Source of the DNA: Sialis fuliginosa
Taxonomy: Eukaryota; Arthropoda; Insecta; Megaloptera; Sialidae
NCBI GenBank assembly: GCA_961205875.1
Contig: OY540818.1
Location: 15,784,761 to 15,848,760 of the forward strand
Length of the DNA: 64,000 nucleotides
Direction of reading: 5' to 3'
Shown: piece by piece, positions 4,548-42,000 of the stretch
How the letters are laid out: every line of letters starts with the position of its first letter
Position numbering within the stretch: the first letter of the stretch is position 1
Notes under the pieces: model-generated
Databases searched by the model: none
Seen by the model: only the letters and a program-made list of their open reading frames with translations
Told to the model about the DNA's origin: nothing
Program-made: the position numbers and the translations under genes

Positions 4548-6322
4548 TTTGGCGAATTTTAATCTAAATACTGTGGACTATATGTGTGAGAGCGCTATGT
4601 AATTGCAAACAGAATTGTGTCGGGTTTCTCTGTTGCTAGGCGCCCATAATCAGAATGAAGTTTAACGGTATCATCATTATTACTTAATTGACAAAAATTA
4701 CGCATGTCGCAACACATCTTGTGTTTTTTGTAAGATATCTGATTTTTTATCTTTCTTAAGAAAGTGTGATCATTTTAGTTTTACTTAAAGTATTTGTGTT
4801 AATATTAATTTAATTTAAATAATATTTTTATGAATGCAAAAAAAACAGTTTTTCATCCCTTGCCTAACTACCCCTGCACCCTTTGGGGACTTTACTCATC
4901 TACGCTACATCTGTACCAATTTCCATTGATGGAGATATATTTGTGCTTATTTTACATTTTTTTATGTATTTTTGTTGTATTACATAGTAATGTAGTGTTT
5001 ATAATAATATTTTTAAACAAAACAAAATTTTTATTTAGGTAAGATTTTTACTTACATTTAGGAGCTCAAAAAATACCAGTTTTCAAAAAAAAACATCTGC
5101 CAAGTAAATGTACAGTGCTTCCTCGTGCTAAATTCACCAAAGGTACTTAATTATTGAACAATTTAAATAAAAACCGTATTTTTTTATAATTTAACTTGAA
5201 ATTTTTTGGAGATATTTTTGAATGCATACACACTAGAAGAAAATATTATTAAAAAATCGTTTTTTTTATCCATCACAGTGGCATTCTCCATTAAATAAAA
5301 GAGCTTTTCGTAACAAATATTTCTGGATATATAAGTGTTTCCATTTGAGTTGACCACTTGAGAAACACTTTGATTGTGTGCAATGTGGTCAGATATTCCA
5401 ATTAAACTAGTACTAAGATAATTATCTATTTACTTATCTATTTATTCAATATCAAAACGGAAAACATGTGTTGTGTGTTATGATGTAATATGTAAATAAC
5501 AGAATTCAAATTTTGAAATAATTATATTTTGAGATATACTAAATATATCAGCAGGCTAGGAAAATTAAAATAACTTACGATAATACAATACACATAAAAT
5601 AAAATTATTTACTCAAGAGTAGGGGAGGAGACAATTTCAAAAATATTTCTATCGAGTTAAAAGTTATTAACACTAGTAGAATGTGAAAATTTAAATTAAA
5701 AAAATAAATAAATAATATTTTAATATATTAATTTTTTAATAGAAGGCAGGGATTTTTGTAATTTTATTTCGCTGGCAGAGAAATTGTCACCCGCCAAAAC
5801 CACCCTGTTTTTATTACAAAGTATTTGAATATTTCTGGAAAAACATAAAATAAAATTTAGAATATTTCAAAAATATATTTGTAGGCATGCGTTTCTTCAT
5901 TATTACATACTAGAAAAAGGTAAACATATCTATTGTTTAAACGAAAGTCATTTTGATGTCTGGATAAAAGAAAATGATACATATATTTATTATTTGAAAA
6001 AATAAAACCACAATTTATTCTATCGCTGACGCAAAACTTATGTAGATATCATTTCGTTTTTACGATTGGCGCATATTTTCTTTGTTTCTCTCTCAAAAAA
6101 ATTCAATTCCTAACATTCTGGGCTTCAATTTTTTATAGATTAAAATGCGGTATGCAAACTTGAAATAAATGAAATGAATCTAACTTTGTTTAACATGAAT
6201 ACTCTCTTTATTCTTTTTATTTACAATTGAAATAAAGCTTCTAAAATGTTTATAATATATCTAACATCTGATTAAAATCTGGATATAATATGTATTACTT
6301 GCTTGCAATAAATGATTATATA
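4548..6322. other. No gene seen; AT-rich intron sequence
   Basis: Nothing recognisable except about 75 bp at 5093-5165 (cttcctcgtgctaaattcac), whose reverse complement recurs at 36909-36977. The latter is therefore a second copy of a short dispersed repeat. Confidence 0.5.
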
Positions 6323-6425
6323 CAGAGCCGGCCTTAGTAATCTGGCGCTCTGGGCGAGATTTATTTTTCCGCCCTTTTTCCTCTTAAAAAAATCATCGAA
6401 AATGACAATTAAAATTGATAAATTA
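6323..6425 (+). mobile_element. hAT-like 5' end (CAGAGCCGGCC), truncated
   Basis: Begins cagagccggccttagtaatc followed by tggcgctctgggcgagattt. It matches the 5' end of the complete hAT element at 28160-28853 in the same order. No matching 3' end follows, so only the end is preserved. Confidence 0.6.
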
Positions 6426-7654
6426 ACAAATAAGTTGAATATCTCAGCTTGGCGCGATCCTATAGACTATAACTTTTTTTTAAATATAACTTACATCATT
6501 AACTTTATGACTATTAAATGCCGTAAGACCGTCGAGACCTTCTTTCCCTATTATTATTAAAAAAATACCTACCTTTTATTTGAAAAACATAATTAACTTT
6601 GCTATATTTTTTTACAAAATTTTATATCAATTTTTATAAACTTCGACGGAAAAATCTTTCAAATAATAAATCAAGTATCAAATTAGGTACATAGATATTT
6701 TATTGATATAAAAAATAATAATTTATTACTTACACATAGTTTTTAATTAATATTATGATTACTTTCTAATCTTTTAACTAATTGTATGTATTAAGTATGT
6801 ACCTAATAGTACCTATACTAGATTTAATTATTACAGATAATTAAAACCAATTTTTTAACAAATCCTCTATAAACAATGATTTAGCATTCACAAAAAAGGA
6901 AATAACGTAGTAGAAAATAGGATATATTCAATACAACTATCTAGCATCAATAATAAATAACAAATTCCATTTAATTCAATCCAAATAAAAACAGACATAT
7001 TCAAGATCACTGAGACATCTTCGCGCCTATTTTAGTGAATTGAATAATACCGATAAGACAATATATAGTAGGTATCTACATAACCGGTTGATTGTGATGA
7101 AGAGTGAATTGATTTGCAAACTGGCACAGGGATCTAGTGTAGCAAGGTCGCGGCTGTGATGCTGGAGGTATCCGCGCCCATGACCCACTCAGATTTGTTG
7201 CTATGATTTACATGTTAATCTTTAAACACCATGATCAGTGGTGCTCCTACTATTAGAACCAAAGGGTAAAGAAATCGAAAATTTATTGATGGATTATTTA
7301 AAGTTATTAAATCTTGTAAACTGGAAGTCACCTTTTAACAGCATAGATGTATTTCTTATAATATAACAAATACTTTTAAATTAGTTCTTAAATAAGTTCT
7401 ATCGAGGTTGTTCTCATTGGTAAAATAAAACGAGTTCAATAGATGGTATATAACTATAATATATAAATAATAAATCATATATTACGAATCTAAAGTCATG
7501 ATCATATATTATTATTTATAATTATATGTATATGATCACATTTGGAATCATATGGTTATTTAATATCGTATGTATATGAATTCATGTATGTTTTATTTTT
7601 ATCGGGTAATTAAAGGTTTTGGTAATTTTCTTAATGTTGTAGTTAATTAACAAT

Positions 7655-24960: not shown

Positions 24961-25445
24961 TCCAAAGTCAGTCTCATTCTGTTAATATTCAATATTAAAT
25001 AAACTGCAAAACCATGAGATGCAAAGTATGTATACCTAGAATATGTGTACTATTGTACATGCATTGGTTAGAATTGTAAGAATTTAAAATTCAATTTTCA
25101 CGTTGTTAAGGTCAGACCACTATCATAAATATTTGAATTATATAGCAAAACACTGCTTCCTGTTACAGTGAAATTGTGTATAATATATAAAGGAGCCTGT
25201 GAAACGAGAGAACAATTCAATATCTTTACACAAATATATGCGCTTCTATATATTTATTCAAATAATGATTCTGGACTTTAAAACACGTCATTTACGTTAG
25301 TAAAAACAGCGCCTTTCAAAAAATTTAATTTGATACATAATGTAGAGAATAGAAAATAATATTATCTATAGTTTATGTCCCATTCATTTTATTCCATCTT
25401 TTATTAGTTTGTCAGAAATATGTTTTAATAAAATAAAAATCAAGT

Positions 25446-25508
25446 GCACTGTTCACTATCAGTATTACGTATAAGAAAGTCTCGTGGCTCCCATGGCAGA
25501 TATTTTTC
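25446..25508 (+). repeat. 60-bp dispersed repeat, copy 1
   Basis: cactgttcactatcagtatt, acgtataagaaagtctcgtg and gctcccatggcagatatttt. The same block occurs twice in tandem at 29521-29640 and, more diverged, at 41925-41990. Confidence 0.65.
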
Positions 25509-26970
25509 CGGGTACAATGTGCATAATATATCACATTTTTAGTTCAATTATATATAACCCTATATTTAATCTGGTATTTCGTCAAAAATATTTGCTCACT
25601 TCTAATTTAAACCAATTGTTTATTTATTTATTTAAATACAAAATGTTAATGCATTAATTTTATGTCTGAAATTTTAACGTATAAAATAAATTTAATTAGA
25701 TTGTATTGGCAAATTGTAGTGTTATGTGTTTGTACTAAATTAACACAGTATAGCTTTTTAAATCCACGATAAATAAATATAAGTAAACATATTTTAAATG
25801 TCTAACAATTAATTTTATTTTAAGATATTCTCTTTAGATAACATTGATTGCATTGTACCACGGCATGCAATATTGTGATTTTTATTCCAATTTCACAGTC
25901 AAACTAGAAAAATGTAAATGGTGCATTTTTGCATTTTTATAACAAATATTTAAAACTACTATAGGTACAATCCAAAAAATATGGTGGACAGTAAGGAAAA
26001 TTATAAAATAATATTAAAAAACATAAATAAATTCATAAGTATTTTTATTTTAATAATTGAAATACATTATAGATTATAGATCATAGATACGTACTTATAA
26101 TAAATCTTATTAGAAAATTGTAATGTAACAAATACAAGATAAAATAAATCTACAAAAAAAACCTTCATATATGACAGTTTTTGTGTTTCTCTTGTAACAA
26201 TTACATGAACTTTACTCCATCGTTCCATTCTATTAGACTTCACTTATGACCCTTAATAAGCTCCAGAGCTTCCGGAATACCGGCAGACATCTTTCAGCTT
26301 AGTTCCGGTTTCAATACATCGAATCCTATTTAATAGTTAGTAAATGGACAGCCAAGGATATTTGGTATTTAATGTTTATAAGAATCTATTTAAAGTATCC
26401 ATAAGTACAAAGTTGTATGTATTAGCCTATACCAGTTTAAATATTTGTTTTATACTCATTGTCAGCTTAGCAAACAATAGTTACTTAAAGTTTACCTCTA
26501 AATATAAAAATTAATAATTCAGTAATAACTTAAAATGTAAGTTAATGGCTCGCCAAATCAAAAGGTATGTATCGAATAGTTAGAGCAGTAGTTCTTAACT
26601 TTTTCAAGTTACGGAACATTTTTGATTGTGAAAAAAATTGCATTGAATCATTAAGGTCATTAAACAAATAATAAAAATATGCAGAATATATTTTTTATTA
26701 AAAACTACAGTTGAAGTAATCTTTCAAAATAAGGTTTTTAGTATTTATACAGAGACGGCTTTAGAGAAAATTAAACTCCCCATTAAAATTGGAACAAATA
26801 ATCACATCTAAAAAAATTAAATTGAATTATTAACAGTTTATTTGATCTAAATCTTAAACATATAAATGATTATCAAAACTGGAGCTTCCATTGTTAATTT
26901 TTTGGAAATTTGATAAAATAACCTTATATAAATTCGATACCAAACAAGTAACTGGTAACTAACATGGACT

Positions 26971-27861: not shown

Positions 27862-28158
27862 TATCTAGGTGCCTACATATTTTGTCGCTATATATTTAAA
27901 TAATGTTTTATTTACATAACATTATTACTATTTCACAAATTTACAGGCACGAATATTGCTTCCTCGCAATATCGAAGATACGAGAATTTTTGTTATCGTT
28001 TTAGAATGAGACAAAAAAATTGTTCTCCGATTTCAAAACTTTAAATTGATCTTTCCGTTCAGATTAAGACAAACACTTTTCATTCCGTGTCTGTCTGTCT
28101 GTCTGTCTAAGTGTGTATGTGTGCGTGTGTCTGTCCCCTGAATCCTTGTCATACTGAA
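27862..28158 (+). repeat. 297-bp direct repeat, left copy
   Basis: By eye identical over its whole length to 31654-31950: starts tatctaggtgcctacatatt and ends cttgtcatactgaa. It contains a CTGT run and R1-family sequence (gagacaaaaaaattgttctc). Left copy is followed directly by the complete hAT element; right copy continues into different sequence. The two copies flank a 3.5-kb insert. Confidence 0.95.
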
Positions 28159-28159
28159 C

Positions 28160-28853
28160 CAGAGCCGGCCTTTGCGATTCTGGCGCCCCAGGCGAGATTT
28201 TTTTTGACGCCCCCCCCCCTTTCCACCGCCACAGTGACGATCATTAAAAATTATCCGCACAAAAAAAAAAAAGCGTGAGAAAATTATCTTGTTATTAATT
28301 CATTAGTGTAATATAATAATATAATATAACATATAATTGATAAATAATATATAATATAACTAAAATTATATAAAAGATTTCTTCCTGGCTTTCATATCTG
28401 CAAAATTATCGATTGCTGTCTCAAAATTGAGGTTTGCTACAACCTTATTTTCAATTGAAAGAATAGCCAAATTATTCAACCTATCTTCTATCATAGCCGA
28501 TTGCAAATAAGTTTTTATGAATTATTTTAATTTACTAAAACTTCTTTCACCACTAGCTACACTAACCGGAATTGTTACAAGAATTAGCAAAGCCACCCAC
28601 AGATTTGGCACTGTGCTTTTCAAGTTTAGTAAAAAAATGTTTAATAAATAATTTATTTTTGATATTAAACATTTTATTAAGTAAAATGAATTATTTTGCA
28701 GAAAAAATCAAAACTATTATTCAAAAAATATATATAGCTTAAATTTGGCGCCCTAGAACAGAACATAGAAAAAAAGTTTAAAATAATTGGCGCCCCCACG
28801 AAATTAGCGCCCCAGGCTGTCGCCTGGGTCGCCTGGCCGTTCGGCCGGCCCTG
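28160..28853 (-). mobile_element. Complete 694-bp hAT element (CAGAGCCGGCC ... GGCCGGCCCTG)
   Basis: Ends are cagagccggcctttgcgatt and gttcggccggccctg, a short imperfect inverted repeat of hAT type. The 3' flank is ttttttac; the same 8 bp precede the partial second copy at 31570, which identifies TTTTTTAC as the original 8-bp target duplication. At its own 5' end only the final c of that duplication remains, followed leftward by the 297-bp repeat. It encloses a broken transposase end on the minus strand. Confidence 0.85.
28378..28625 (-). pseudogene. hAT transposase C-terminal remnant
   Basis: Minus-strand frame reads PNLWVALLILVTIPVSVASG, then ERSFSKLK, a stop, then FIKTYLQSAMIEDRLNNLAI and LSIENKVVANLNFETAIDNF. 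This is the hAT C-terminal dimerisation region, in which the SGERSFSKLK motif is characteristic (family knowledge). A TAA stop follows KLK and no upstream transposase domain exists, so the copy is dead and can only have moved with help from another element. Confidence 0.8.
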
Positions 28854-29520
28854 TTTTTTACTTATCCAAGTATTAAACCAATCTATAGATTCTAATAAAT
28901 TGAAAATTTATCAATAATGATGAACGGATGGCAAATTAAACAAAATATATTGTTACATTCATCAGAGTAACCGTTTTTTTAAATTAGAGCGAATTGTCGC
29001 TGAAGAAGTATCGTCTAATTTTTATAATACGCGTGATTTTGCTAATTAACTTTTTGTATAGTGTTTACCAGGTATGTATATTGTGATTCATATTATTTAT
29101 TTGATTTTTTTGTTTCGGTTCTGATATTTATGTAATGGTTTTTATTTGTTAACGTATGTTTACATCATGCACTTGTCGAAAGAGCAATAAAACTAAGTTT
29201 TGTTAACGAATGTACATATCCTCATTGTTTATAGTTAATAATAATTATATAATTTATAAAAATATAATTTTAATAATAAAAAAAAGGTAATATTATTCTC
29301 TCCATTATATAACAAGTGATTTTTTTAACGTAATAACTGAAATCAGATGTTTACTCTTGTAAATTTTTGAATTAACGAATTATTTTTGAATTAAGAAAAA
29401 ATGTTTTAGATACAAAATGTCGAGTATGTTATTATCTATAATTAATTCCCTATACATTTTTTTCCAACATTTATAATTTAGCCAGAAAGAAATTTTTTAT
29501 GTAATTATTTAGATTCACCT

Positions 29521-29640
29521 ACACTGTTCACTATCAGTATTACGTATAAGAAAGTCCCATGGTACCTATGGCAAACAAGCACACTGTTTAATCTCTGTAC
29601 TACGTATAAGAAAGTCCCATGACACTCATGGCAGATATTT
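29521..29640 (+). repeat. 60-bp dispersed repeat, two tandem copies
   Basis: Two units exactly 60 bp apart, each with acactgtt, ctacgtataagaaagtccca or a close variant, and an atgg core. Related to 25446-25508 and 41925-41990. Confidence 0.7.
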
Positions 29641-29820
29641 CTCCTCTGTTATGAACCATTTGAATTATAATAAAATTGCATGACGTTAACATTTGTTTAC
29701 AAAGTCAAAAAAATGAAATAAACTTTTATTTTCAAAAAAAGATTTTTTTTACTATTTTTCCCTTAAATCTAGCCTACTTCTGCTTCAAAAAATTAATATT
29801 TCGTTAAAATAAAAAAAATC

Positions 29821-31503
29821 ATGCAATTAAGGGTTAAAGATAATAGTGTAAGCTACATTTAAAAAAAAAACTGGAGTCTCCTCGATCGCGCCAAGTTGAG
29901 ATATTAACTATTCAATTTACTTCTTTGTTAGCGTATGAGTTTTAATTTGTTTTTTTAGTTTTAACTTGTTTTTAAAAAGGGAAGGAGCACGCGAAGGTCT
30001 TTAAGTGCGTGATGCTCTTAAAGATAATAGTGTAAGCTACATTTAAAAAAAAACTGGAGTCTCTTCGATCGCGCCAAGCTGAGATATTAACTATTCAATT
30101 TACTTCTTTGTTAGCGTATGAGTTTTAATTTGTTTTTTTAGTTTTAACTTGTTTTAAAAAAGGGAAGGAGCACGCGAAGGTCTTTAAGTGCGTGATGCTC
30201 TTAAAGATAATAGTGTAAGCTACATTTTAAAAAAAAACTGGAGTCTCTTCGATCGCGCCAAGCTGAGATATTAACTATTCAATTTACTTCTTTGTTAGCG
30301 TATGAGTTTTAATTTGTTTTTTTAGTTTTAACTTGTTTTTAAAAAGGGAAGGAGCACGCGAAGGTCTTTAAGTGCGTGATGCTCTTAAAGATAATAGTGT
30401 AAGCTACATTTTAAAAAAAACTGGAGTCTCTTCGATCGCGCCAAGCTGAGATATTAACTATTCAATTTACTTCTTTGTTAGCGTATGAGTTTTAATTTGT
30501 TTTTTTTAGTTTTAACTTGTTTTTAAAAAGGGAAGGAGCACGCGAAGGTCTTTAAATGCGTGATGCTCTTTAAGATAATAGTGTAAGCTACATTTTAAAA
30601 AAAAACTGGAGTCTCTTCGATCGCGCCAAGTTGAGATATTAACTATTCAATTTACTTCTTTGTTAGCGTATGAGTTTTAATTTGTTTTTTTAGTTTTAAC
30701 TTGTTTTTAAAAAGGGAAGGAGCACGCGAAGGTCTTTAAGTGCGTGATGCTCTTAAAGATAATAGTGTAAGCTACATTTTAAAAAAAAACTGGAGTCTCT
30801 TCGATCGCGCCAAGCTGAGATATTAACTATTCAATTTACTTCTTTGTTAGCGTATGAGTTTTAATTTGTTTTTTTAGTTTTAACTTGTTTTTAAAAAGGG
30901 AAGGAGCACGCGAAGGTCTTTAAGTGCGTGATGCTCTTAAAGATAATAGTGTAAGCTACATTTAAAAAAAAAACTGGAGTCTCTTCGATCGCGCCAAGCT
31001 GAGATATTAACTATTCAATTTACTTCTTTGTTAGCGTATGAGTTTTAATTTGTTTTTTTAGTTTTAACTTGTTTTTAAAAAGGGAAGGAGCACGCGAAGG
31101 TCTTTAAGTGCGTGATGCTCTTAAAGATAATAGTGTAAGCTACATTTAAAAAAAAACTGGAGTCTCTTCGATCGCGCCAAGCTGAGATATTAACTATTCA
31201 ATTTACTTCTTTGTTAGCGTATGATTTTTAATTTGTTTTTTTAGTTTTAACTTGTTTTTAAAAAGGGAAGGAGCACGCGAAGGTCTTTAAGTGCGTGATG
31301 CTCTTAAAGATAATAGTGTAAGCTACATTTAAAAAAAAACTGGAGTCTCTTCGATCGCGCCAAGCTGAGATATTAACTATTCAATTTACTTCTTTGTTAG
31401 TGTATGAGTTTTAATTTGTTTTTTTAGTTTTAACTTGTTTTTAAAAAGGGAAGTAGCACGCGAAGGTCTTTAAGTGCGTGATGCTCTTAACCCTTAATTG
31501 CAT
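29821..31503. repeat. Inverted 17-bp borders around the satellite
   Basis: atgcaattaagggttaa at 29821-29837 faces ttaacccttaattgcat at 31487-31503 as a perfect inverted pair. TTAA next to CCCTTA resembles piggyBac-type ends (TTAA target plus CCC start), but then the ends would point away from the array. No target duplication outside the pair is evident. Confidence 0.6.
29836..31490 (+). repeat. Satellite array, nine copies of a ~184-bp unit
   Basis: Units start with aaagataatagtgtaagcta at 29836, 30020, 30203, 30387, 30571, 30755, 30939, 31123 and 31306; the array ends at 31490. Spacing is 183-184 bp and copies differ by only a few bases and A-run lengths. Landmarks are gatcgcgccaagctgagata, actattcaatttacttcttt and aagggaaggagcacgcgaag. 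The end of each unit can fold (gagcacgc against gcgtgatgctc). No frame is open throughout. Flanks atgcaattaagggttaa (left) and ttaacccttaattgcat (right) are inverted. Confidence 0.97.
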
Positions 31504-31569
31504 CTTGTTAACATTCGTGAACAATGTTTTCAGAGGTATCTATTAGCAAAAATGTACAATATTTTTTAC

Positions 31570-31653
31570 CAGAGCCGGCCTTTGCGATTCTGGCGCCCCA
31601 GGCGAGATTTGTTTTGACGCCCCCCCCCCCTTTTTCCACCGCCACAGTGACGA
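31570..31653 (+). mobile_element. First 84 bp of the hAT element, truncated copy
   Basis: Starts cagagccggcctttgcgatt and stops after gccacagtgacga, where the second 297-bp repeat begins. It differs from the complete copy at 28160 by one substitution and homopolymer lengths. Preceded by ttttttac, the same 8 bp that follow the complete copy. Confidence 0.9.
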
Positions 31654-31950
31654 TATCTAGGTGCCTACATATTTTGTCGCTATATATTTAAATAATGTTT
31701 TATTTACATAACATTATTACTATTTCACAAATTTACAGGCACGAATATTGCTTCCTCGCAATATCGAAGATACGAGAATTTTTGTTATCGTTTTAGAATG
31801 AGACAAAAAAATTGTTCTCCGATTTCAAAACTTTAAATTGATCTTTCCGTTCAGATTAAGACAAACACTTTTCATTCCGTGTCTGTCTGTCTGTCTGTCT
31901 AAGTGTGTATGTGTGCGTGTGTCTGTCCCCTGAATCCTTGTCATACTGAA
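31654..31950 (+). repeat. 297-bp direct repeat, right copy
   Basis: Identical to 27862-28158 by eye. It continues rightwards as gtctgaaccgatagtaatga, the natural continuation of R1-family sequence (compare 36516-36560), so the right side represents the undisturbed host junction. Confidence 0.95.
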
Positions 31951-32330
31951 GTCTGAACCGATAGTAATGATACTTAATTATTGTTAAAGTTCTTATATAA
32001 ACTGCCATTGGTAAATCATATAATTTTCATACAATTTTATTACAAAATATTAATTCGAAATTTTGCTTAATACGTGCCTGATTGTAAAAGAATATTTTAC
32101 TACAAAGTTGTGGTCAACTTTTTTGTAGAAATTTGAATGCTCTACAAAAAAGATTCCATAAAATGTTCACGTAATATGCGCCGTTCTTAAGATATCTTGA
32201 AAAATAAATATTTTGGAATGCCACCCCACACTTCAACCAACAAACCAAGTTTCATTAATATCGGTCCATTGGTTCATGAGTTATTTGTGTGATAACACAC
32301 ACGGAAAAATAAAGTAAAAATTAGTTTTCT
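31951..32330 (+). repeat. R1-family sequence, second arm
   Basis: Carries tgctctacaaaaaagattcc, cacgtaatatgcgccgttct, aagtttcattaatatcggtc and cattggttcatgagtta, matching 560-850. Together with the end of the 297-bp repeat it forms an inward-facing pair of R1 ends. Confidence 0.6.
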
Positions 32331-32888
32331 CTTTGAAAAATGATCACATAGCTTTCCCTACCATTCGAATATTAGAAAGGAAACAGTAATAATTAATGTC
32401 TTAGACAATCTGACATCCCTGGCAATAAATTTTCAAAAGGACAAAATAGTGAAAAATATACTAGTTTTGCTTTCAAAAACGCATCTTGTTTATATCAGAA
32501 AAACGTGTTTTGGAAGCACTGCAATAAATCAATGTTTTCCTGAACAACACATTTCCCTATAGTCGAAGAGAATTAGCTTATTGTACCTAGCTGTAACAAT
32601 TTATTGCAACAAGCAAGAGTTTCCTGTGGTGAAGCATTAATTGACATTTGAATATGCATGTCCACCTGTACGGTTATGGTTCTGACAGTTGGACATTCAG
32701 TGTTCAGTCAAATCTAGTTTACATTAGCATTTGATTATAATTCATCATGGGTAATTGACTGGATGTACAAGATACTCAAACGCATCGCAAATTCATTTTC
32801 AACATGTGTGCGTAATTTTGTAATGAGTGTTATGAATCGAATAGTGACATTTTGTAGGTGGGTTTATTTAACATGCATGATACAAATA

Positions 32889-32959
32889 TTATTTGTTTGA
32901 CTATTTAAAATGTTTAATTAATTAACTATTATTGCCATAAGGGTTCCGAAGTACGTACT
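32889..32959 (+). repeat. 71-bp direct repeat, left copy
   Basis: Matches 33621-33691 at 68 of 71 positions: tatttaaaatgtttaattaa, ttaactattattgccataag and ttccgaagtacgtact. The end aagggttccgaagtacgtac is also the reverse complement of the right end of the element at 47178-47918. Confidence 0.9.
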
Positions 32960-33480
32960 CAATTTACTTCTTTGTTAGTTCATCAGTTTTAATTTGTTTT
33001 TAAAAAGGGAAGGAGGTCGCGAAGGTCTTCGGGCGCATGATACTCTTAAAGATAATAGTGTAAGCTACATTTAAAAAAAAATTGAGTCTGTAGGATCGCG
33101 CCAAGCTGAGATATTAACTATTCAATTTACTTCTTTGTTAGTTTGAGTTTTAATTTGTTTTTAAAAAGGGAAGGAGGTCGCAAGGGTCTTTGGGCGCGTG
33201 ATACTCTTAAAGATAATAATGTCAGCTACATTTAAAAAAAATTGAGACTGTAGGATCGCGCCAAGCTGAGATATTAACTATTCAATTTACTTATTTATTA
33301 GTTTATGAGTTTTAATTTGTTTTTAAAAAGGGAAGGAGGTCGCGAGGGTCTTTAAGTGCGTGATACTCTTAAAGATAATAGTGTCAGCTACATTTAAAAA
33401 AAATTGAGACTCTAGGATCGCGCCAAGCTGAGATATTAACTATTCAATTTACTTCTTGAAGAAGGAGGTCTCGACGGTCT
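32960..33480 (+). repeat. Diverged short satellite array (161-bp units)
   Basis: Three repeats of aaagataat-start at 33048, 33209 and 33371, spacing 161-162 bp, plus partial units at both ends. Same family as 29836-31490 (gatcgcgccaagctgagata, aagggaaggag), but units lack a ~22-bp stretch (a second ttagttttaacttg/tttt) and carry many substitutions. Units are less alike than in the large array. Confidence 0.9.
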
Positions 33481-33620
33481 TCGGGATGTCCATCAACTTA
33501 GTGAAACAACTTCCGAAAAAAGAATTGCCATTATGCCAAGAATTTACCACTTTTTTGCCGTTAATTAGTTGTGAAATTAAAAAAATTTCCACTCTTTTAT
33601 TATTTATTATTTTATTATTA

Positions 33621-33691
33621 TTATTTGATTGACTATTTAAAATGTTTAATTAATTAACTATTATTGCCATAAGAGTTCCAAAGTACGTACT
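33621..33691 (+). repeat. 71-bp direct repeat, right copy
   Basis: Near-identical to 32889-32959; together they bracket 661 bp that includes the short satellite array. The right copy continues acgtggactgtttggagcca. Confidence 0.9.
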
Positions 33692-39043: not shown

Positions 39044-42000
39044 TTAGTCGAGCATAGTCTAAATCCAAATTTTTGAAATTTTTTGCTTTCTAGTTTTTTT
39101 TTATTTAATTTTATATAATTTATTATTATTATATTTTATATAATTTGAATTATTGCTTATATTACATCAAACAAGATTATTTTCATTTCGTTTCAATAAA
39201 ATTACCGCTTATAACGCCATGACACTTTGACAGAATGTTAAACTAGTGGTGACGAAGACGATTTTTACTCAAACTACTAAAGTCGTTAAAACACAAAGTA
39301 ATCGTTTTATCCTGAGGGATCGTTTTGTACCATTCTCCCCTACTTTGAAACTCTTATGATATACACCCTTGTATGTCTTGCCCGAATTATTTATTATTAT
39401 GTACTAAAATTAAGTATCATTTTTAATATGAAACATAAATGAAAAATGCAATAAATTAAAGATGATGTGTTGTAAAACAAAAGAGCAATAAATAAGAAAT
39501 GAGTAGACGCCTTTTTATAGTTTCCTAACGAGAAGATAATTCATATAAAGTAGCACGTACAGGTATAAAGAAAATATTTCATACTGAAAGAAAATAAAAA
39601 ACAAAATGGTCATGTCTCTTGATTAATTTTAAAACAATTGCACAGAAAAAATATACGAGTATATGTAAGTACGTGCTTTATAAAAAACACTAACATAAAA
39701 ATTATTCTAGTGTAATTACAAAAAGCTATTTTTAAAAACAAATGAAAACGTACTTACATGAATTTTTATTGGCGATTTTTTTTATAAAAGCATTAGACAT
39801 AATATTATATACATATAACGATATACTTATTAGATTGTGGTTTTCAAAAATAAAAAAGATGTTATTGCATATGATATACTTTTTAATACTTCCTTTTTTG
39901 TAGAAGATTGAAATTTTCAACGGATACGTTTTCAGTTTTCTTACTAGGAATTTTTTTAATCTTGCATTGTAAAAATTCATTTCACGTAGATATGAAGATG
40001 AGAATAATGCTAGTGTAAATTTTTTAAGTATTTAAAATATATATAAACCCAAAAAACAAGTTAATACATCGAAATTATAGTTAATAATTTAAAAAATGTA
40101 TTATTATTTAATCATTTATTATTTATCTTCTTTATTTGTTTTCAACCTCTCCGTGTAAAGTGAAATTTTAAATAAACTAATTTTCATTTATACATACATA
40201 TATATATGTCAGATATTATACAGAATTTGTTCTAGAGCTTACGCTATCTGTGAGGTGTTAAATCGTTATGAATTTTCTCGGATTTTATCTATCACCACTG
40301 CTTTAAGACCGCTGATTTCTACTAAATGCGCATGTCTCATATCAGTTAGATAATGTTGTATTAAAATCATGTAATTTTTATTTCGTATATTATGTTGATG
40401 ACATAATAAGTTATTCGAAGAGCTTTAGAGTTTTGATTGACAAACAGTGCGCAATTTAAAATATATACTTTACATCAACCATCGTAAATAAATTAAGTTT
40501 GTAACAATACATTAATTGTTATTGAACTTCCCAAAAAAAAGTTTCCATCTCACACATGAGATCCTATAAATATATAGTAGGTATAATTTCTTTTTCTTTA
40601 ACTTGTATATCAGTCAGCCTATGCCATTTTCGACAGCTTAGTAGTGTTCTTCAAATGTATTATTGCAAGAACAATCTTCTTAAAAACATATACTTGTTTT
40701 ATGTGCTACAAGTTCAATGTGAGAAATCCAATTTAAATGTCTGTCTTATTTATTTACCATGCGAAGAAATTTTTATGTTCTATTAAAACTATTTTATCAA
40801 AGTAATGTATTGTTGCTTTGTATTGACAGCTGCCTAATCTGGTGAATTAAGTTTTTTTCTATATTTCACTTTAATCTTTTATTTTCAAATCAAGAACATA
40901 CATAGCATTTCAGAAGTCAAAGCGTTTATTTGCATATCTAGCTAAATAATAAAAAGGGTAAAAATATATAAAATATAAATAAAACAAAATAAATGTCGGC
41001 TGGTGGCTCTTTCAATGCCTCGATGTTATGAAAGAACCAAATTTTATTTTTGGGTAAAAAACTGTAGTTCCCTCACGAAGAATTTCCGAACATAAGTTCA
41101 CATAAAGTTTTTTGCTTAAAATTACATCCTCGATCTACTGTTAAATTTGTTTACACTAGTTGTAAATCATCCTGTATATATAAACAATAACTGTTTATAA
41201 AATACATTTTGGGTCTTTTTTAAAATTGGCTCTTTCATGCCACTCTTCCCCCACGTCTTTCGATCAAAATTCCTACGTTCTAGACCGGCAAACAAATTTA
41301 ATTTATTTACAAACATCCTGTATAAGTAAATGTGTTGATAGCGGTTTGTTTACAACGAACAAGAGATTTTAAATTGCATTCAGTATGTTTTGACGAGATG
41401 TATGTTAAAATGTAATGATTGAGTTGTGGTGTTACATTTATGCATCGATGATATACATATACATATTCATGTTCATGCATACATATATGAACATGGTCAT
41501 GTGTATTATATATGATTATCATAATGTTACTATGAAATACTGTCGACAGTTTTAATTAACGTTGTATCTTGCGGCCAGTTGAACTTATTAAACAACCGCC
41601 CTTGTTACCCTTGTTTATCCTCCACTATAACAGGGTAGTTTGTTGTTATGTAACGTTTGATACCCCATTGTTTAAATTTGTTTTTAATTGTGCCAATAGC
41701 AAAATAGAACATTAATCATTCTGAGATTTTTTGAAAATATATCCATTTTGTAATCAATTCTAACTATTTTCGCCATGATGTCTGCCTTTTGTCTGTAGAC
41801 GCTAGTAGGGTGAAATTGTATATTTATGATTCATTTTCATCTGGGAAGATAACATCTTAATTTTAAAACCTATCTATCTTTTATCAGTTAACTTTCTGGT
41901 TTACTTACAAGTAGAAAGCCGTACATTGTACGCTATACACTCAGTACAACGTATAAGAAAGTTCTGTGACATTCATGGCAGTTTTTTTTATATTTGCCTA

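Follow-up and report, generated by a model that had tools for sequence, protein, structure and literature searches.

The closest described counterparts of the element reported here are the macrotransposons of maize, in which two hAT transposons move the DNA lying between them (PMC9910405). Maize is also described as having composite insertions accompanied by tandem duplications and by broken ends of Ds (PMC4270019), and gap filling at transposons with terminal inverted repeats (TIRs) is documented in animals (PMC8277862). Here, we analyzed a 64,000-nucleotide stretch of the Sialis fuliginosa genome (C10:15784761-15848760; hereafter, the window), which contains a right-truncated copy of a dispersed macrotransposon with the order hAT–B–(184-bp satellite)n–A–hAT. 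In this composite, A and B are the left end and the right part of one piggyBac-like miniature inverted-repeat transposable element (MITE), and the satellite array lies between them.

The composite resembles the Ac/Ds macrotransposons of maize in that two hATs flank other DNA, the outer ends move as a unit, insertion creates 8-bp duplications, and excision, which leaves a modified 8-bp duplication in maize, may have done so here (PMC9910405, PMC4270019). It differs in its cargo, which in the accessible maize accounts consists of genes or enhancers at particular loci and here is a satellite array. Also unlike the maize cases described there, it is represented by about 100 exact left junctions, and the inner hAT end is missing from 106 of its 137 exact right junctions. 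A further likeness is to the Pack-TIRs of animals, for which template switching during repair of a cut element is described as joining element and foreign sequence through short microhomology; in Pack-TIRs, however, the foreign DNA lies inside the element, whereas in the window copy the duplicated DNA comes from the host flank and lies beyond a truncated end (PMC8277862). Transposon-borne satellite arrays likewise involve tandem repeats dispersed by a mobile element, but those treated in the accessible part of a review are either tandemised transposons or arrays internal to Helitrons or MITEs, whereas the array described here is moved by two hATs and also includes a split piggyBac-like MITE (PMC12628747). 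A satellite-carrying hAT composite of such copy number with loss of an inner terminus was not found in the accessible parts of the open-licence literature searched. The composite provides a concrete route by which satellite DNA can leave an array and disperse, with two hAT copies carrying the whole block.

A dispersed hAT composite with a satellite cargo

The window copy lies between two copies of a host repeat, named R, and consists of the following parts:

27862-28158, plus strand: left copy of the host repeat R, an exact repeat
28152-28159, plus strand: TACTGAAC, the probable left 8-bp target duplication of the composite; it adjoins the hAT terminus, and the C at 28159 is as in 19 of 19 alignable paralogs
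28160-28853, plus strand: left hAT, 694 bp, with both TIRs present
28854-28861, plus strand: TTTTTTAC, inner hAT target duplication, left
28862-29833, plus strand: B, right part of the piggyBac-like MITE, with the 3' end CATGCAATTAAGGG
29834-31490, plus strand: satellite array of nine 184-bp units (1657 bp), with TTAA at each border
31491-31569, plus strand: A, left end of the same piggyBac-like MITE as B, starting with CCCTTAATTGCAT and ending with TTTTTTAC
31570-31653, plus strand: right hAT, only its first 84 bp, with an intact inner terminus (without the 9-bp deletion described below)
31653-31654: non-canonical junction of the 84-bp hAT remnant with R, with 1-bp microhomology (T)
31654-31950, plus strand: right copy of the host repeat R
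31951-31952, plus strand: GT replacing CCA at the insertion point, a putative hAT excision footprint

The genome searched comprises 392 Mb in 20 contigs of a single assembly. The lists of candidate loci are lower bounds, with 40 of 135 candidates scored for the 184-bp unit and 40 of 719 for A joined to hAT; junctions were counted across the whole genome by exact match only, and these counts refer to junctions, not to elements. In addition, 20 stretches of 10 kb each were fetched around other 184-bp arrays. The full hAT–B–array–A–hAT order is present at nine of these 20 loci, and four more (L017, L021, L026, and L027) have a shortened left hAT in an otherwise full order. Five contain the right hAT alone within the stretch, and no hAT was seen in L018 or L022. 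Genome-wide, there are 108 exact left junctions.

All 20 copies with both ends readable carry outer 8-bp duplications, which are perfect in 18 and have one mismatch in two. Among the nine fetched loci with both outer hAT ends, eight duplications are perfect and one (L011) matches in 7 of 8 positions; L012 and L025 have the same flank and are therefore not independent. For copies without the 9-bp deletion at the A/right-hAT junction, termed unlocked, left and right junctions could be paired at 15 loci. Ten of these are readable at both ends (nine perfect duplications, one with a single mismatch), and the other five, without a left hAT terminus in the fetched stretches, were counted neither for nor against. 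At one locus, L087 (C12:14904500-14913500), four hATs and three satellite arrays form a multimer with cctacaat flanking both outer ends, and this multimer appears to have moved as a single unit. The matching outer duplications, including those of the multimer, mark the two elements and the DNA between them as inserted together, as in a macrotransposon. Assignment to the hAT superfamily follows from the 8-bp target site duplications, the inner one of which is confirmed by empty sites, and from the short TIRs (CAGAGCCGGCC ... GGCCGGCCCTG). The left hAT of the window, at 694 bp, has no room for an encoded transposase. Among 20 further A–hAT copies, all unlocked, the hAT right end is intact in 19, and the DNA beyond it is not B.

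These results change the view of the insert given in the original prediction, which had described a 3.4-kb circle opened near the hAT 5' end and inserted at this site. The same permuted order is dispersed with outer 8-bp duplications, and since this family explains the insert, no circle insertion is needed; the idea was dropped once the family had emerged. The prediction had itself named an 8-bp host duplication outside a larger ordinary transposon as evidence against a circle, and the copies elsewhere in the genome come close to this. An inserted extrachromosomal circle is also expected to open at an arbitrary point, whereas the left end here is the composite terminus, as at other loci. The coincidence of the left junction with the hAT terminus had been taken as a hint of transposase cutting. 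Involvement of a transposase is indeed likely, but in a different sense: the composite naturally ends on the left at this junction. The 184-bp array, the piggyBac-like ends, the genome-wide family, and the CCA→GT change at 31951-31952 had not been noticed. Much earlier than this insertion, when the family was founded, a circle may have existed, although nothing requires one.

Some features vary among the copies. The run of T residues after the left hAT is six long in the window type and 9-12 long in the others among the left junctions listed (100 of 108), which may mark two lineages. L010, L012, L021, L024, and L025 have the common flank ccaatatg; in L010, L021, and L024, inverted arms of about 440-765 bp surround the array, as if the composite were carried inside another element.

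Origin of the permuted order and loss of the inner terminus

Four sites in the genome read ACAATATTTTTTACTTATCCAAGTATT, in which A is joined to B through a single TTTTTTAC without a hAT. These sites bear out two claims of the original prediction, namely that A and B were formerly adjacent and that the TTTTTTAC following the complete hAT and the TTTTTTAC directly preceding the truncated copy (31562-31569) are one hAT target duplication split between the ends of the insert. At two of the four sites (L038 and L039), the hAT-free A–B element lies inside a 184-bp array. The element in L039 measures 1053 bp from end to end, with TTTA on one side and TTAA on the other, and TTAA is present at the left end in L037, L038, and L040. 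A and B together thus have the TTAA target and the CCC...GGG inverted termini of a piggyBac-like MITE. In the window, its ends at 29821-29833 (minus strand) and 31491-31503 (plus strand) bound the array and face away from it.

B differs by 0-1.5% among 14 array-linked copies, including that of the window and that of L018, which lacks a hAT, and by 1.3-2.2% between array-linked copies and the hAT-free L038 and L039. In the 12 copies measured, the array borders enclose whole numbers of units, from 6 to 43. The arrays of the multimer L087 contain non-whole numbers (8.36, 5.62, and 8.6), and both B and A are shortened there.

As hAT-free A–B elements occur inside arrays at two loci, we infer that the permuted order arose most simply when a segment running from one hAT to another was mobilised from a tandem array. 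In a first step, a hAT would have inserted into a MITE within a 184-bp array, two such MITE(hAT) units would have come to share one array, and the stretch bounded by the first hAT's left end and the second hAT's right end would then have moved as a single element. No simple, non-permuted A–hAT–B copy is present among 19 of the 20 unlocked copies, those with a readable right end. An internal A–hAT–B arrangement does occur in the multimer L087 and at C1:44.91 Mb, where B is cut after 101 bp.

Many copies of the composite carry a 9-bp deletion at the junction of A with the right hAT, TTTTTTA[CCAGAGCCG]GCC, which takes out the inner terminus of the right hAT. The deletion is present in 14 of the 20 fetched loci, four are intact (L014, L016, L023, and L026), and two are unreadable. 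Genome-wide, 106 exact right junctions have the deletion and 31 do not, and the window copy represents the form without it. We tentatively propose that the deletion locks the composite: the right hAT could no longer leave alone, and reactions at the inner ends (reversed-ends transposition) would be blocked. Two hATs and their satellite cargo might in this way have become one self-stabilised element, which expanded, as the 106 locked versus 31 unlocked exact junctions may reflect, and which would now spread satellite blocks of 6-43 184-bp units. The unlocked window copy would then display the kind of damage that locking prevents. If confirmed, locking through loss of an inner terminus would show two neighbouring transposons fusing into a single heritable element.

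A putative excision footprint and the proposed history of the window copy

The right hAT of the window ends after 84 bp; these match the first 81 bp of the left hAT except for one substitution and a C/T run that differs in length by 3 bases. The truncated copy (31570-31653) and the complete hAT (28160-28853) lie where the original prediction had placed them, as do the two copies of R (27862-28158 and 31654-31950), which form an exact 297-bp direct repeat with identity stopping precisely at both borders. The two hAT starts differ from each other, whereas the two copies of R differ nowhere. The right two thirds of the left R (27953-28154) are part of a dispersed repeat family. R was also considered as a long terminal repeat or other terminal repeat of an element and rejected: it lacks TG...CA ends (it starts with TATCTAGG and ends with ACTGAA), it has no outer duplication, and its right part is dispersed.

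For the R family, 40 of 2141 first-look candidates were scored, and 20 further paralogs were fetched. The base at the insertion point is C in 19 of 19 alignable paralogs, as in the left flank, and G in the right-hand copy of R; L082 lacks this stretch, its alignment crosses a deletion, and it is not counted among the 19. The C at 28159 fits as the last base of the 8-bp target duplication. Paralog L042 reads CATACTGAACCACTGAACCGAT, and the right-hand copy in the window reads CATACTGAAGTCTGAACCGAT. Only two genome matches to the pattern CATACTGAAN{1,6}CTGAACCGAT were found, L042 with CCA and the window locus with GT. The pattern CTTGTCATACTGAA has five matches: two in the window, L042 from the R family, and the unrelated L041 and L043. 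AAC stands at the insertion point in six of the eight other R-family ends listed, and the remaining two, L034 and L036, are divergent there. Judging from the paralogs, the pre-insertion site probably read CATACTGAA-CCA-CTGAACC.

Excision of hATs leaves small substitutions, deletions, and insertions, some of them complementary to the flank (PMC3499496, PMC3744419). Because the change from CCA to GT falls exactly at the insertion point of the composite, we read it as such a footprint, which it resembles, and an excised allele is the probable source of the right half of the locus. This single footprint may reflect excision of the composite as a unit. If instead a standard composite insertion had been followed by an unrelated CCA→GT change and a separate adjoining duplication–deletion, every step would be ordinary, but the small change would have to hit the exact insertion point by chance, and we give this sequence of events very little credence. 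Scarcely more credible is the proposal of the original prediction that a 3.4-kb circle or linear fragment was captured at a break with staggered ends of about 297 nt, or that replication switched templates. This proposal would give the same order of left flank, R, insert, R, and right flank, and the right junction does have 1-bp microhomology; however, it predicts neither that the left end is the natural composite end after a plausible target duplication, nor the CCA→GT change in the second copy of R.

The best model, which we consider probable on balance, is abortive gap repair that used both a filled and an excised template. The composite would have inserted after TACTGAAC. On one chromosome copy it would have been excised, leaving the footprint GT; on another, either the right hAT (here with an intact inner end) or the entire composite would have been cut and the gap incompletely repaired. 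Repair from an intact copy would have restored 84 bp of the right hAT on the left side, the excised allele would have supplied 297 bp of R plus the footprint on the right side, and the repaired ends would have been joined at one shared base. A single repair event could thereby account for the shortened right hAT and the host duplication as well as for the footprint and the preserved left target duplication. Internal deletions begin at hAT position 46-53 in L017, L021, L026, and L027, which suits aborted repair stopping soon after entry into the hAT. Abortive gap repair has reportedly been described by Rubin and Levy, and insertions with tandem duplications by Vaughn and Bennetzen.

Apart from repair, only two of the alternatives account for the footprint. 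The main one, which we regard as unlikely, is an assembly join between a haplotype with the full composite and an excised haplotype with the footprint, in which a switch inside the right hAT left R twice. It would explain the perfect 297-bp identity, the truncation within a repeat, and the footprint, and the youth of the elements, as seen in the low divergence of B among array-linked copies, suits it. Against it, the window contains no N, and the overlap at the junction is a single base, while assemblers usually join sequences through long overlaps. More doubtful still is an alternative transposition reaction involving two element copies (hybrid element insertion or a related process, perhaps accompanied by re-replication). 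Such a reaction would have connected one copy's left flank to the other's right flank with a footprint at the join, the remaining hAT end would have inserted at least 297 bp leftward, duplicating R, and the right hAT end would later have been deleted. We derive from this scheme that the flank should be directly duplicated, that the left duplication should stay intact, and that a footprint should lie where R meets the right flank. In maize, reversed-ends transposition gives tandem direct duplications, and a bronze1 allele described in PMC4270019 joins a truncated repeat to a truncated Ds. However, the right junction is not a hAT terminus with an 8-bp duplication, so that a second deletion is required, and the flanking duplications named for maize sister chromatid transposition in the accessible part of PMC3744419 are inverted, not direct.

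Several points weigh against abortive gap repair and the history proposed for the composite. The model requires two different repair templates, and the excised allele is deduced from one assembly. The footprint is only two bases long, with the pre-insertion sequence taken from paralogs, and identity to L042, the paralog that shares the local sequence, is only 77% over 167 aligned columns. None of the 20 fetched loci offers a second case of a truncated composite adjoined by an almost perfect direct duplication of host DNA. In L019, direct repeats about 300 bp long and 93% identical flank the array and right hAT, in L016 a direct repeat with 96% identity immediately follows the right hAT on its right, and inverted repeats occur at other fetched loci, none of them like the exact 297-bp case. 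The founding donor locus, sought through A–hAT–B copies, was not found. As the window locus combines a filled site with an apparent excised-site scar, it makes hAT excision repair testable in a natural genome.

Related sequences occur elsewhere in the window. A second array of units of about 162 bp (32959-33457), which are about 82% like the 184-bp unit, lies between 73-bp direct repeats with 96% identity (32887-33691), and pieces of the 162-bp unit are also present on the minus strand of L011 (8639-9140). A diverged hAT-like end (6320-6384) beside a minus-strand piece resembling the 162- and 184-bp units (6407-6553) is possibly an old composite. Finally, pieces of B (29396-29644) are 73-83% similar to 25318-25509 and 41940-41987, and older piggyBac-like relatives may therefore be nearby.

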